From the NCBI GenBank assembly GCA_022833215.1, contig JAIPUZ010000092.1:51078-115077 (forward strand): a stretch of 64,000 nucleotides of DNA. The letters are read 5' to 3'. How positions within the stretch are numbered: the stretch's first letter is position 1; each line of letters begins with the position of its first letter. Positions 5,668-44,387 of the stretch are shown here, piece by piece. The notes below the pieces were generated by a model. The model was not told where the DNA came from. It saw nothing but the letters and a program-made list of their open reading frames with translations, and did no database searches. A program made the translations under genes and the position numbers. This stretch comes from Mesorhizobium sp. GTDB taxonomy: Bacteria > Pseudomonadota > Alphaproteobacteria > Rhizobiales > Rhizobiaceae.

Positions 5668-7986
5668 TTGGCCATTTTCATCACATGTCTGGTGTTTGCC
5701 GTGTCCGGCGCCTGGCTCGGCATAGGCGGCATATGGCTCATAACGCTTGGGGGGAGCTGGTATTATGCCATCGTCGGCGCCGTTTTCCTGGTCGTGGCGT
5801 GGCTGCTTTACCGGCGGCGCACGGAAGCGCTGTGGCTGTATGCGTTTTTCGTGCTGGCGACCCTCGTCTGGGCCGTATGGGAGGCCGGCTTCGACTGGTG
5901 GTCTCTCGGTGCGCGCGGCGGCATCCTCGTGCTGCTTGCCATCTGGTTGCTGATGCCGTTCGTGTTGCGGAAGCTTTCGGGTACCGATGGCCGGGCACCG
6001 CTGATATTCGCCGTTCTGGCCTCGCTCGGCGTGGCGGGATATTCGATGACGACCGACCCGTACGACATCGTGGGAACCCTCCCGGCGGAGAAAGTTACGC
6101 CCGAGGGCGCCCTCGGCGCAAATTTCCCGGCCGGAGAATGGCACTTCTACGGGCGCAGCCCTTACGGCCAGCGCTATTCGCCGCTGGACCAGATCACGGT
6201 CGATAACGTCGACAAGCTCGAGCTGGCCTGGACCTACCAGACGGGCGATGTGCGCCTGCCAAGCGATGTCACCGAAACGACCTATCAGGTGACGCCGCTC
6301 AAGATCGGTGACAATCTCTACATCTGCACGCCGCACAACCTCGCCATTGCCGTGGATGCGGCGACGGGCGAGGAGAAGTGGCGCTTCGACCCGCAGATCG
6401 GGCCGGAGAACCAGCGGCAGCACCAGACCTGCCGTGGTGTTTCCTATTACAGGGATGCGTCGATCGCTGCCGGCGAAGCCTGTGCGGAGCGGGTCTACCT
6501 GCCGACCTCCGATGCGCGCCTCATCGCCCTCGATGCGGCCACCGGCCAGATCTGCCGCTCCTTCGGCAATGCCGGCATCGTAGACCTGATGGAGCATATG
6601 CCGCACCCGAAGGCTGGCTATTATTATTCGACCTCGGCTCCGCTGATCGCGCGCGACAAGATCATCGTGGGCGGTGCGGTCAACGACAACTACTCCACGG
6701 AAGAGCCGTCCGGGGTCATCCGCGCCTTCGACGCACGAACGGGCAACGTCGTCTGGGCGTGGGATTCCGGCAATCCCGAGCGCACAGAACCGCTCGGCGA
6801 TGGCGAGATCTATACGCCGAACTCACCCAACATGTGGTCGACGGCCAGCGCAGACGAGGAGCTCGGGCTGGTTTACGTGCCGCTCGGCAACCAGACCCCG
6901 GACCAGCTCGGCATGGGCCGCAGCGAGCATGTGGAAAAATACTCGTCCTCGATCACCGCCCTCGACCTCGACACAGGCGAAGTGCGCTGGGTGCGCCAGA
7001 CGGTGCATCACGACCTGTGGGACATGGATGTGCCGGCGCAGCCCTCGCTGATCGATCTGACGACGGATTCCGGGACGGTCAAGGCGCTGGTCGGCCCGAC
7101 CAAGCAGGGCGATATCTACGTTCTGAACCGGGAAACGGGCGAGCCTGTCATTCCCGTCAACGAGGTGCCAGCTCCCGGCGGTGCGATCGAAGGCGACTTC
7201 ACCGCGCCGACGCAGCCCGTGTCGGACCTGACCTTCATGCCGAAGCCGCTGACGGGCGCAGACATGTGGGGCGTGAGTCCGTTCGACCAGCTGGCCTGCC
7301 GGATCGAGTTCGCCAGACTGCGCTATGAGGGGCGCTACACGCCGCCTTCCGTACAGGGAACGCTGGTCTATCCCGGCAATTTCGGCACCTTCAACTGGGG
7401 CGGCGTGGCGGTCGATCCGGTGCGGCAGGTCATGTTCGGCATGCCGACCTATCTGGCCTTCAAGTCGCAGCTCGTTCCGCGCGATCAGGTGCCGCCTGCC
7501 GATGCGGAAGCGCGCGGCAGCGAGCAGGGACTCAACCGCAACGAGGGTGCCCCCTATGCCGTGATCATGGGGCCTTTCCTGTCGCCGCTCGGCATACCGT
7601 GCCAGTCGCCGCCGTGGGGATATGTTGCGGGCGCCGATCTTCGCACCGGCAAGATCGCATACAGGCATCGTAACGGCACGGTCTACGACATGACGCCGCT
7701 GCCGCTGCCCTTCAGGGTGGGTGTTCCGGGCATTGGCGGGCCGATCGTCACAGCCGGTGGGGTCGCATTCCTCGGCGCGGCCGTAGACGATTATCTGCGC
7801 GCCTATGACCTCACCAGCGGAAAGCAGCTCTGGAAGGCGCGTTTGCCGGCGGGCGGCCAGTCCACGCCCATGACCTATACGGCAGGCGACGGCAGCCAGT
7901 TCGTCGTCATCGTTGCCGGCGGGCACGGCTCGGTCGGCACGAAGGCTGGCGACTATGTGCTGGCCTGGAGGTTGCCGAAACAGTAG
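5668..7986 (+). CDS. gcd: Membrane-bound PQQ-dependent dehydrogenase (glucose/quinate/shikimate type)
   Basis: This encodes 772 residues, close to the roughly 800 of E. coli Gcd. Five hydrophobic segments in the first 130 residues anchor it in the inner membrane. The rest is a periplasmic eight-bladed PQQ beta-propeller, with WTYQTGDV, TPLKIGDNLYICTPHN, WAWDSGNPERTE and the TPNSPNMWSTASADEELG stretch typical of this family. It would oxidise an aldose or a cyclic polyol in the periplasm and pass electrons to ubiquinone. The start is TTG at 5668 after GGGGG. No pqq synthesis gene lies in the window, so cofactor supply must come from elsewhere. Glucose as substrate is by family only; quinate or shikimate cannot be excluded. 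Confidence 0.92.
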   Translation: MAIFITCLVFAVSGAWLGIGGIWLITLGGSWYYAIVGAVFLVVAWLLYRRRTEALWLYAFFVLATLVWAVWEAGFDWWSLGARGGILVLLAIWLLMPFVLRKLSGTDGRAPLIFAVLASLGVAGYSMTTDPYDIVGTLPAEKVTPEGALGANFPAGEWHFYGRSPYGQRYSPLDQITVDNVDKLELAWTYQTGDVRLPSDVTETTYQVTPLKIGDNLYICTPHNLAIAVDAATGEEKWRFDPQIGPENQRQHQTCRGVSYYRDASIAAGEACAERVYLPTSDARLIALDAATGQICRSFGNAGIVDLMEHMPHPKAGYYYSTSAPLIARDKIIVGGAVNDNYSTEEPSGVIRAFDARTGNVVWAWDSGNPERTEPLGDGEIYTPNSPNMWSTASADEELGLVYVPLGNQTPDQLGMGRSEHVEKYSSSITALDLDTGEVRWVRQTVHHDLWDMDVPAQPSLIDLTTDSGTVKALVGPTKQGDIYVLNRETGEPVIPVNEVPAPGGAIEGDFTAPTQPVSDLTFMPKPLTGADMWGVSPFDQLACRIEFARLRYEGRYTPPSVQGTLVYPGNFGTFNWGGVAVDPVRQVMFGMPTYLAFKSQLVPRDQVPPADAEARGSEQGLNRNEGAPYAVIMGPFLSPLGIPCQSPPWGYVAGADLRTGKIAYRHRNGTVYDMTPLPLPFRVGVPGIGGPIVTAGGVAFLGAAVDDYLRAYDLTSGKQLWKARLPAGGQSTPMTYTAGDGSQFVVIVAGGHGSVGTKAGDYVLAWRLPKQ

Positions 7987-37009: not shown

Positions 37010-37606
37010 ATGACCTCTGAAGTCCTCCTTGCACTGGCCGCCTATGCGTTCGTGACCTCGATCACGCCCGGCCCGAACAATTTCATGCTGCTGTCGTCCG
37101 GGGTGAATTTCGGGTTCGTTCGCAGCATCCCCCATATGCTGGGCATCGGCATTGGTTTCGTCGTGCTGCTGCTGGCCGTCGGTTTCGGGCTGGGAGCGGT
37201 GCTGACAACATTTCCGGTCCTGCACACGGCGCTCAAGATCGTCGGCGGCGCCTATCTGCTTTATCTCGCATGGAAGATCGCCATGTCGCGCTCGGTCGAG
37301 AGCGGAGGCGACGGGACCGCGCAGCCGATGACCTTCCTGCAAGCGGCTGCCTTCCAATGGGTCAACCCCAAGGCGTGGGTGATGGCCGTCACGGCCATGG
37401 CGGTGTTCTCCAACCCTGCAAACCCGTTCCTGTCGGTCGTCCTGATCTCGGCGGTGTTCGGCATCATCAACCTGCCATGCGTTTCGAGCTGGGCCGGGTT
37501 CGGCATGGCGCTGCGCGGTTTCCTGTCCGATCCCGCGCGCCTGAAGTGGTTCAACATCGCCATGGGCGTGCTCCTCGCAGCCACGCTGTGGCCGATGGTT
37601 CGGTAG
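37010..37606 (+). CDS. LysE family amino-acid exporter
   Basis: This encodes 198 residues with six predicted membrane helices. The LysE/RhtB signature follows the first helix (TSITPGPNNFMLLSSGVNFGFVRSIPHMLGIGIGF), with FQWVNPKAWVMAVTAMAVF in the middle. It exports an amino acid or derivative; the substrate is unknown. The gene ends 62 bases before the RecD-like helicase gene on the same strand, which may share the transcript. Confidence 0.92.
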   Translation: MTSEVLLALAAYAFVTSITPGPNNFMLLSSGVNFGFVRSIPHMLGIGIGFVVLLLAVGFGLGAVLTTFPVLHTALKIVGGAYLLYLAWKIAMSRSVESGGDGTAQPMTFLQAAAFQWVNPKAWVMAVTAMAVFSNPANPFLSVVLISAVFGIINLPCVSSWAGFGMALRGFLSDPARLKWFNIAMGVLLAATLWPMVR

Positions 37607-42196: not shown

Positions 42197-43051
42197 TTAC
42201 TCGGACACCGTCATCTTGAAGAAATCGCCCTGTATCTCGAACTCCTCGATGCCGGGCGTGGTGGCGGTGAAGACGATGGCCCGGGCCGGGGTCAGCCCCT
42301 GGCAGAACTTGCTGAAGCGGCGGGCCAGCCCGCCGTCCGAGAAGGTTCCCGTGCGCAGCGCCGGCAGATCCGACTCAACCAGTTCCCAGTCGCGCGGCAG
42401 TTTCCCGCAATCGCCGCGCTCGGCGTAGATCGGGCGCGTGTCGCCAACCTTCATCGTCACCACCGGGTTGAACGGAACAATGGGGGCATGGTCGGCCGGG
42501 CCAGCCCATGGGCGCCAGCCGGATGCCGTGATCAGGGAACCGGCCGTGGCTCCGGCGGCCAGCAGGACGATGCCGCCGAGCATGGCCTGAAGCATCGAAA
42601 AGCGCTTGCGGCCCAGCCTTTCCCGGCCGAGCAGCGCGGGCAGGCCGGAGGCATGCGGTCCGCCCGCAATGACCGTCATCGGCCTCGCGCCCGCAACCGC
42701 CGGGGGAGAAATCGGCACCGGCAGGCCCGAACGGGCCTCCATGTCTCCCGCCTGCCTGTAGAGTCTGCTCCACAAAGCCTGCGTGGCGGGATCGTCGGCC
42801 ACGTTGAGCAGCTTCGCCAGCACCCTGAGATTGCCGGCGCGGGGCAGGTGACGCCCCGAGCGCCAGTTGTTGAGATTGCGCATGGCCGTCTCGAACTGGC
42901 GCTGACCCTTGCTTGCGGTCAGGGCGCAATAGGCGCTGGCCAGCGTCGCGTCGTCATAATAGCCGGCGCGGTTGCACAACTCGTCGAACATCAGGTGCCA
43001 GCGCGTGAACGCCGCGTCGTCGGTTTCCCCCATCTCCCCCTCTCTTCTCAT
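42197..43051 (-). CDS. HTH-like transmembrane protein with C-terminal SDGG domain (gene A)
   Basis: This encodes 284 residues. A helical N-terminal domain (16-102) contains NLNNWRSGRHLP...NLRVLAKLLNV, which looks like the last helices of an XRE-type DNA-binding fold. A linker and one membrane helix (about 153-175) follow. The C-terminal part (198-284) is probably periplasmic and carries MKVGDTR, RGDC (Cys215), FSDGG (237-241), SKFC (Cys250) and PARA (255-258). It is 4 bases overlapped by the upstream paralogue (ATGA, 43048-43051). ATG 43033 is an alternative start with a better ribosome site. The family was not recognised; the architecture is that of a ToxR-like one-component regulator. Confidence 0.85.
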   Translation of the reverse strand: MRREGEMGETDDAAFTRWHLMFDELCNRAGYYDDATLASAYCALTASKGQRQFETAMRNLNNWRSGRHLPRAGNLRVLAKLLNVADDPATQALWSRLYRQAGDMEARSGLPVPISPPAVAGARPMTVIAGGPHASGLPALLGRERLGRKRFSMLQAMLGGIVLLAAGATAGSLITASGWRPWAGPADHAPIVPFNPVVTMKVGDTRPIYAERGDCGKLPRDWELVESDLPALRTGTFSDGGLARRFSKFCQGLTPARAIVFTATTPGIEEFEIQGDFFKMTVSE

Positions 43052-43818
43052 CGAACCAGATGTGCCGGATCGGTGACGAAAATCTTGACGAAATCGTCCA
43101 GCAGCCGGACCTCCTCGACCCCGGCCTTCCGCGCTGTGAAGCGCACCGCCCGCACCGGCACGACGGCATTGCAGAAATTGCTCATCTTGCGGGCGATCCC
43201 GCCGTCCGAAAATGTGCCCAAGGTGCTGAACGGCACACGCGGCATCGTGTAGCCCCATCCGGGAACATTGCCCCCGTCGCAGTCGCCGCGATCTCCGTGG
43301 ATGAGCCGGCTTTCGCCGACAAGCATCCTGACGCGCGCGTCATAGCCGATCATCGGCAGGTCGCGATACGGGTCCGTGGCCATCCAGCGGAAGCCGGTGA
43401 CGGCAAGCACCGCTGTCATGGTGACGGCTCCCGCCCACAGCAGCCGGCGGCCGGCGGCCGGGCGGCGGACGCCCGCGCCGACAGGAGGTGTGTCCGTGGC
43501 GATCTGCTGCTGGCCGGGCACCTCGCGACCGCGCGCGGCGGCGTAGAGCAGGTTCCATTGCCTGAGCAGTTCGGGCTCGTCCGAGACATGCAGCAGCTCG
43601 GCCAGGATCATGAAGTTGCGCCGCAGCGGCAGGTGGCGCCCGAGCCGCCAGTTGCGGAGATTCTTCTCCGCCGCGTTGAAGTCCTCCTGCGCGGATTTGC
43701 CCGCCCGGCGGCAGAGCTGGCTCGCCAGCCTTGCATTGTCGATATGGCCACGGCTTTCGCACAACTCATCGAGCAAGATGTGCCACCGGCTGAACCTGTT
43801 CCACTCAAGGCGCTGCAT
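43048..43818 (-). CDS. HTH-like transmembrane protein with C-terminal SDGG domain (gene B)
   Basis: This encodes 256 residues from the ATG at 43818 (GAGGGGG upstream). It is a paralogue of the downstream gene. N-domain 10-95 has SRWHILLDELCESRGHIDNARLA and NLRNWRLGRHLP..NFMILAELLHV; one membrane helix lies at about 125-145. The C-domain has MLVGESR, RGDC (Cys180), FSDGGIARK (203-211), SNFC (Cys216) and PVRA (221-224). Identity to gene A is spread over all parts, so the pair arose by duplication. It is the first gene of a two-gene operon, divergent from the lipoprotein at 44034 that shares the C-domain. Confidence 0.85.
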   Translation of the reverse strand: MQRLEWNRFSRWHILLDELCESRGHIDNARLASQLCRRAGKSAQEDFNAAEKNLRNWRLGRHLPLRRNFMILAELLHVSDEPELLRQWNLLYAAARGREVPGQQQIATDTPPVGAGVRRPAAGRRLLWAGAVTMTAVLAVTGFRWMATDPYRDLPMIGYDARVRMLVGESRLIHGDRGDCDGGNVPGWGYTMPRVPFSTLGTFSDGGIARKMSNFCNAVVPVRAVRFTARKAGVEEVRLLDDFVKIFVTDPAHLVR

Positions 43819-44033
43819 GCTCTGTGCACCCCCTCGATGCCCACAGGGCGATTTAAGAAGCGATTCATGGAGATAGCAACCGGGATTGCTCCCATTTTTC
43901 CGTATTTTCCGGTGATTGGCGGACTTTTCGATTTGCTGGTGCGGAAGGATTTGGCACGCCGGAAAGGCCACCGCCGATGTTCTGCCTGGCTCCGGTGGAT
44001 CAGCTTTCAGGCGTTACAGAGAGGGGCTTAGAG

Positions 44034-44387
44034 ATGCGAAACGCAATTGTTGTCGGCGCGGTGTCGATCCTGTCGGGGTTGTTGCTGTCGGGTTGTGTCA
44101 CGCCGACCAACGCCGACAAGACAGTGGAAATGCGGGTGGGGGAAACGAGGCACCTGACCGCCTATCGCGGCAATTCCTGCGGCGCGGGAGCGCCAAGCTA
44201 TGCCGAAATCGTGGGCCGGCTGCCGAATTCGTCGATCGTCAGATATTCCGACGGCGGGCTTTCGAGCCGTGTCAGCCGGGATTGTGGCAAGCGGGTGCCG
44301 ACGCGCGCCGTCAACGGCACCGCCATCGCGGTGGGAACCGAAGGGCACCGCTATCAGTCGGGAACCGTGGCCATCGTCGTGAAATAG
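44034..44387 (+). CDS. Lipoprotein consisting of an SDGG domain (gene C)
   Basis: This encodes 117 residues. A lipoprotein signal peptide ends in the lipobox LLSG-C, with Cys21 as the lipid site. Everything after it is the domain seen at the C-termini of the two divergent membrane proteins: MRVGETR (33-39), RGNSC (Cys49), YSDGGLSSR (71-79), SRDC (Cys84) and PTRA (89-92). Spacing from SDGG to the second Cys (9) and from that Cys to the Pro (5) is the same in all three. The ATG follows GAGGGG. Function is unknown. A shared ligand or a contact with A and B is inferred from the shared domain. Confidence 0.85.
   Translation: MRNAIVVGAVSILSGLLLSGCVTPTNADKTVEMRVGETRHLTAYRGNSCGAGAPSYAEIVGRLPNSSIVRYSDGGLSSRVSRDCGKRVPTRAVNGTAIAVGTEGHRYQSGTVAIVVK

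Follow-up and report, generated by a model that had tools for sequence, protein, structure and literature searches.

Paired membrane proteins with an XRE-like domain, an operator-like repeat and a divergent exported partner: a putative regulator family in Mesorhizobium and its relatives

What could be the role of three neighbouring genes that carry the same two-cysteine (two-Cys) domain, twice in proteins with a membrane helix and once in a lipoprotein? The question is raised by a stretch of 64,000 nucleotides from Mesorhizobium sp. (contig JAIPUZ010000092.1, positions 51,078 to 115,077), hereafter the window. Gene A (42197-43051, minus strand; 284 amino acids, aa) encodes an N-terminal domain (N-domain), a linker, one membrane helix and a two-Cys periplasmic domain; gene B (43048-43818, minus strand; 256 aa) has the same layout and is the first gene of the B-A operon, the two reading frames overlapping by 4 bp. 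Gene C (44034-44387, plus strand) is divergent to B-A and encodes a 117-aa lipoprotein with the lipobox LSGC and Cys21. We consider it likely that A and B represent an undescribed family of transmembrane transcription regulators (TTRs), which bind DNA at an array of GGAAAA boxes and control themselves and the divergent partner.

The two-Cys domain comprises residues 194-284 of A (42200-42472, minus strand; Cys215 and Cys250), residues 159-249 of B (43072-43344, minus strand; profile match) and residues 29-116 of C (44118-44381, plus strand; Cys49 and Cys84). A preliminary description of this DNA, made from the letters alone, had reported the three open reading frames, their common domain and its motifs, and all of these are borne out. 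In A, B and C, respectively, the motifs read MKVGDTR, MLVGESR and MRVGETR; RGDC, RGDC and RGNSC; FSDGG, FSDGG and YSDGG; and PARA, PVRA and PTRA. The two cysteines are 35, 36 and 35 residues apart, and the distances from the last Gly of SDGG to Cys (9) and from Cys to Pro (5) are the same throughout. A and B are homologous over their full length (E=2e-51, 35% over 274 columns, both domains covered), and C matches A at E=1e-12 and B at E=2e-15 (values of single comparisons), a similarity far beyond chance. In the genome of origin (4.55 Mb, 131 contigs), A, B and C are the sole matches to A at E≤10.

The part that the preliminary description itself called weakest, a DNA-binding role of the N-domain, has gained the most support. 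An AlphaFold2 model of A from a 46-row alignment (mean predicted local distance difference test, pLDDT, 84) consists of a helical N-domain, a linker of low confidence, a helix at residues 153-176 and a beta domain at 197-283, and its N-domain matches a five-helix fold of the XRE/lambda-repressor type. In VIA-align 2, the N-domain is covered by 41 of the 50 matches listed for this model, 37 of which are XRE, lambda, Cro or POU-type DNA-binding proteins, going by title; the other four are a designed DNA-binding protein, an entry of unclear title, an oxidase-type enzyme and a globin. The XRE-type matches range over residues 15-104 of A (42740-43009, minus strand), and the presumed recognition-helix region (residues 50-75) is basic. 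The N-domain of B was assigned by a profile match to residues 5-97 (43528-43806, minus strand).

The family features were taken from an alignment (A5) of 46 regulator rows, the window's A and B among them, from which L038 (a near-copy of L037), the A protein of L082 and both regulators of L083 (split frames) were omitted. Exactly two cysteines, 34-36 residues apart, are found in the two-Cys domain of all 46 rows. The single membrane helix that had been proposed for A and B is supported by the model helix of A (residues 153-176; 42524-42595, minus strand) and by the hydropathy of the family, the 19-residue mean being at least 1.6 in 40 of the 46 members and 1.25 at the lowest; the helix of B was placed by eye at residues 126-143 (43390-43443, minus strand). 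Net positive charge is greater before the helix than after it in 36 members. We infer an N-in topology of A and B, and a disulfide between the periplasmic Cys pair. The model of C (20 rows, pLDDT 86) shows the same strand order as the beta domain of A, for which the matches are weak and only Ig-like (SU10, SbsC, Big_2-CBM56, chagasin and many more); Foldseek alone yields no match at E≤0.001 for either model. The lipobox is present in 12/12 C orthologues (alignment A6). The N-domain carries conserved cysteines of its own, Cys26 in 46/46 rows and Cys42 in 42/46; in A these residues (~42974-42976 and ~42926-42928, minus strand) could have a redox or metal role, or merely pack the core.

The domain had been called undescribed, and profile-library searches of proteins and alignments agree. 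Pfam and NCBIfam yield zero families for A, B or C at E≤10, the best PHROGs matches reach only E 0.027 (B) and 0.2 (C), and a sequence search of the PDB gives nothing under E 0.35. When alignments were scanned against Pfam, NCBIfam and PADLOC, scattered weak matches appeared in one to three members (Shadoo, SpdB, anti-sigma, carph-isopro, RmrA and others), which, the HTH-like ones apart, were set aside as noise. Among the 46 members there is no credible Pfam DNA-binding model (the best being HTH_3 in one member, E 0.2), and at E≤10 neither a winged-helix nor a RodZ model is found, just four unrelated weak families. Our search of the open-access literature found no paper on the A/B/C family, nor the combination of a paralogous pair, a head-to-tail array of 9-bp boxes and a divergent, exchangeable exported partner.

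Is the trio a unit? By profiles of the N-domain and of the two-Cys domain (C-domain), the loci were sorted into five kinds: a B-A pair with divergent lipoprotein C (12 loci: the window, L036, L037, L038, L040, L062, L064, L065, L067, L070, L071 and L073); a pair without adjacent C (7 loci: L039, L069, L072, L076, L081, L082 and L083, the last two with split frames); a single regulator (16 loci: L041-L044, L077-L080, L085-L089, L145, L146 and L149); the N-domain only (L090 and L091); and a C-domain protein only (11 loci: L045-L047, L092-L096, L147, L148 and L150). Duplicate contigs (L063, L066, L068, L074, L075 and L084, identical to L036, L039, L040, L038, L037 and L041, respectively) were dropped. 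Conservation of the trio, as predicted, thus holds in part: 12 of the 19 pair loci have a divergent C, but seven lack an adjacent one, and C is not an obligatory member. No separate C was found in the 8/8 single-regulator genomes searched whole with both profiles, the remaining eight loci being judged from the locus alone.

The pair itself appears to be old. In a tree of 47 full-length regulators, which includes L145 and omits L146 and L149, 16 A proteins form one clade (100/98) and 17 B proteins another (99/97), implying that one old duplication made the pair, which has been kept since; this supports the paired unit seen in the preliminary description. The Shinella-group singles are sister to A in this tree (98/98). 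The short C-domain tree, with few columns in its 68 rows, recovers clades for B (100/100) and for the 12 lipoproteins C (100/100) but supports A only weakly (82/65), and it places the Shinella group next to B instead of A (86/87). With start codons chosen by us, the two genes of the pair either overlap or are separated by no more than 30 bp in 17/17 pair loci measured. Mean pairwise identity of the two-Cys domain across 11 trio loci is 70.0% for C, 67.1% for A and 51.5% for B; the free copy is the best kept and that of B the least.

The intergenic region 43819-44033 had been singled out as a place to look for operator motifs. Alignment of the B-C intergenic regions of the 12 trio loci reveals a single conserved block, with CGGAAAA-NN-CGGAAAA in most of them; L064 and the first copy in L065 deviate. 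In the window the operator-like element occupies 43895-43929 on the minus strand (that of B), ~80-110 bp before the B start, and consists of a GAAAA box and the direct repeat CGGAAAA-NN-CGGAAAA with a 9-bp step. The head-to-tail boxes on this step suggest side-by-side binding of several N-domains.

To assess the element beyond the trio loci, a 9-bp box matrix was trained on 10 of the 12, L062 and L038 being dropped as near-copies of the window and L037, with boxes picked by eye from the alignment. The test set consisted of 21 other regulator loci (L082 and L083 left out), namely five pair loci, which are closer kin of the training loci, and 16 single-regulator loci. In 20/21 the best pair of GGAAAA boxes has sense orientation and lies 52-113 bp ahead of the start codon; in 15/21 it reaches p<0.05 against 300 dinucleotide shuffles. 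At 18/21 loci no other window of the whole locus scores as high as the upstream pair, the exceptions being L079 (4/218 windows), L081 (2/360) and L086, which fails with 121/256. AAA is found 16-21 bp before the first box in 16/21 loci, L086 included, peaking at about two 9-bp steps, a count made without shuffle control. The 11 C-only genes show no consistent box pair (p<0.05 in two, L096 and L148; four on the sense and seven on the antisense strand), and neither N-only gene has a pair at p<0.05. No second site in the 64-kb window comes within 3 bits of the element, and the 4.55-Mb genome has just one copy of the three-box pattern, the one between B and C, against 0 and 0 for the reversed control. 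A second two-box match, inside a MazG-like open reading frame, was taken as chance because the reversed control also gives two matches.

The gene divergent to the regulator is less constant. Where C is absent, its place is often taken by another small exported protein, as read by eye in a survey that leaves out L146 and L149; seven of these alternative proteins were scanned against family models. An exported protein of ~130 aa is divergent in L039, L076-L081 and, split, L083, its L081 copy matching Big_9 at E 0.001, below cut-off. The divergent gene encodes a PEBP-family protein in L044 (PF01161, 2.1e-10), an LprI-type protein in L085 (PF07007, 4.1e-5), an unnamed exported protein of ~100 aa in L042 and L043, and a lipoprotein in L041; the exported candidates in L087-L089 are less clear. 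A glutathione-transferase-like gene, read by eye, is in this position in L069 and L082, and nothing clear is in L072 and L086. L145 (genome G874, another family of the class) combines a single regulator with an exported C-domain protein encoded divergently. The divergent partner is thus swapped among unrelated exported proteins (L041, L042-L044, L076-L081, L085 and L145), as though the outputs of a single regulator module could be exchanged. A Big_9-like protein is encoded in 2 of 151 genomes of the family: G058, beside a B-A pair, and G167, where two tandem copies lie at a contig end (G167:C11:20-1007; L152 and L153) and no regulator was found.

Building on the computed fold class, the homology, the hydrophobic helix, the conserved element and the co-conservation of the family, we propose that the cytoplasmic N-domain would be an XRE/lambda-repressor-like helix-turn-helix, joined through the linker and membrane helix to a periplasmic Ig-like two-Cys domain. 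A and B, probably acting jointly as a heteromer, would bind the GGAAAA boxes of the B-C intergenic region through their XRE-type domains, several of which may sit side by side, as in a membrane-tethered oligomer. From its position between the divergent promoters the element may serve both; bound A/B would control transcription of their own genes as well as of the divergent gene, whose exported product is lipoprotein C in the window. C, which carries a free copy of the sensor domain, would most likely exert periplasmic feedback on A/B, and our guess is that it would bind either their sensor domains or the same ligand; in other species another exported protein could be the output that returns information to the sensor domains. 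The idea of a membrane-spanning regulatory pair with a lipoprotein thus gains from the XRE-like fold, the hydrophobic helix, the kept pair and the operator-like element, but loses C as a rule. Of the three contrary outcomes named beforehand, none was seen: the searches gave no known family, the modelled fold of the N-domain is of a DNA-binding type, and the trio is a recurrent arrangement (12/19 pair loci). With the element as a precise DNA target and the divergent gene as a precise output, the system is directly testable.

In design, A and B seem to work like ToxR, CadC and TcpP, which likewise have a cytoplasmic N-terminal DNA-binding-type domain, one membrane helix and a C-terminal periplasmic domain, an A-rich direct-repeat site and often a partner gene; the ToxR box is given as TNAAA-N5-TNAAA in PMC8517210, and PMC9214523 describes periplasmic disulfides in ToxR, YqeI and TcpP. 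By the winged-helix criterion, however, A and B lie outside the ToxR/CadC family, the fold of the N-domain being XRE-type rather than an OmpR-type winged helix. They also differ in that the periplasmic domain is Ig-like, two paralogous regulators are adjacent, and the partner is divergent, exchangeable and, when it is C, homologous to the sensor domain. VtrA/VtrC, as described in PMC9214523, share the membrane-bound regulator, the overlapping or adjacent partner gene and a heteromeric periplasmic part such as is proposed for A and B. Unlike VtrC, a lipocalin-like sensor partner without DNA-binding domain in that account, both overlapping genes here encode N-domain regulators, and the third protein is divergent. 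HigX of Caulobacter is also an alphaproteobacterial membrane-bound transcription factor, but, according to the description in PMC13384398, with a LytTR domain, four membrane helices and no periplasmic domain. In Listeria, two XRE regulators lie beside a secreted protease and an inhibitor-like lipoprotein, membrane-bound regulators not being mentioned where the abstract of PMC8235301 begins. TTRs are defined in PMC10269533 by a predicted transmembrane region and a predicted DNA-binding domain, and the census there relied on Pfam DNA-binding models, tabulating over a hundred DNA-binding domains. A and B have the transmembrane region (model, hydropathy) and no Pfam-recognised DNA-binding domain, so that a Pfam-based count would probably miss them; XRE-type membrane regulators as such may well be in the census already.

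Two more specific schemes concern the role of C. With a rather low probability, C could be a homotypic periplasmic reporter: its supply, attachment or folding would be the signal, read by domain contact or competition, and A/B would adjust expression of C and themselves through the 9-bp array. If this were true, three copies of one disulfide-linked Ig-like domain would make up a thermostat of the envelope state. Alternatively, C and the other divergent proteins might, as inhibitors or stabilisers, shield the envelope against an enzyme such as a protease or lysozyme, with A/B sensing the free inhibitor or the enzyme. We regard this as rather doubtful: many other Ig-like domains match at least as well as chagasin does, no inhibitor family was matched by sequence in the alignment scan, and most divergent proteins have no assigned job. 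Such an inhibitor circuit would in any case add an output to DNA-level control by A/B and not replace it.

The main structural rival is RodZ, whose parts, as reported in PMC6946637, follow each other as in A and B (a helix-turn-helix of XRE type, one membrane helix and a beta-rich periplasmic domain) although its XRE-type domain is not a DNA binder. The helix-turn-helix of RodZ binds MreB instead. A and B might then bind a cytoplasmic protein, e.g. a cytoskeletal filament, and form an envelope scaffold with their periplasmic domains and C, which we find improbable. The RodZ models in Pfam are HTH_25 and DUF4115, and 0/46 members match a RodZ model at E≤10. The basic region of the presumed recognition helix also argues against this possibility, and the sense-strand element before the regulator genes would have no reason to exist; A and B further differ from RodZ in being paired and divergent to an exported protein. 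Among the fold matches listed there is no winged-helix or RodZ entry, which excludes neither. In the genome of origin a single, partial match to MreB_Mbl exceeds the cut-off (37.6 bits, positions 127-301), but the model also matches 12/14 controls, among them Corynebacterium and Haloferax, which are not known to have MreB. That the element is real yet belongs to something else (a promoter feature or another regulator's site), with A and B acting elsewhere or needing a DNA-binding partner, is equally hard to credit: no promoter was recognised near it and A-rich repeats at short distance from a start can have other uses, but the element tracks the regulator family across loci with very different divergent genes, is not consistent before C-domain-only genes and has its three-box form only between B and C in the genome of origin.

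The regulator family is patchy and so far alphaproteobacterial. In whole-genome searches, each tally of which counts the genome of origin, matches were obtained in 4/51 genomes of the genus (E≤0.01), two of them credible (G000 and G041, both trios) and two weak with internal stops (G030 and G035). The family gives 15/151, three being weak with internal stops, the order 12/347, the class 5/385 and the phylum 2/398, i.e. the genome of origin and one uncredited match. The latter, in G1160 (E 1.2e-5, half length), yields no coherent protein and was not counted as a relative. Scanning the genome collection with a single peptide pattern, which sets a lower bound, finds at least 24 loci, each of them rhizobial by record title (Aquamicrobium, Mesorhizobium, Nitratireductor, Corticibacterium, Oryzicola, Mycoplana, Shinella, Xaviernesmea, Hoeflea, Brucella oryzae and metagenome-assembled genomes); the closest named relative is Aquamicrobium defluvii, with 92% for A. 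A phage origin was rejected with zero matches to A in 50,697 phage records at E≤0.01, and a plasmid origin with 2/72,556 plasmid records matching (Rhizobium sp. WL3, a single regulator annotated as hypothetical, and Pseudosulfitobacter, C-domain only); by these tests the module is not mobile.

Several loci show reduced or broken forms. L090 (5999-6481) and L091 (5820-6347), from two genomes of one genus, encode the N-domain and a Pro-rich tail followed by a stop, with no C-domain anywhere in either genome, and may be soluble members or decayed copies. In L083 (7537-9184, Brucella oryzae NBRC 102588) each regulator, like the gene of the divergent exported protein, is broken into two frames, through module decay or an error-prone assembly, and all are whole in its relative L081 (Xaviernesmea oryzae). 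In L082 (8001-8803, Mesorhizobium sediminum) B is whole, but two overlapping frames make up A. The stand-alone exported C-domain proteins of the C-only loci occur in other alphaproteobacteria; no N-domain was found in 8/8 of their genomes searched whole with both profiles (of 11 C-only), so that an older, independent function of the two-Cys domain is probable. The genes around the trio gave no functional hint, and Kup, PdxJ and most other window neighbours are common only to L062, L036 and L064. At L093 (G403), the locus of the C-only gene at 5761-6168 holds relatives of the window's open reading frames at 37270, 46771 and 53644, and the C-domain gene may thus belong to an anciently shared neighbourhood.
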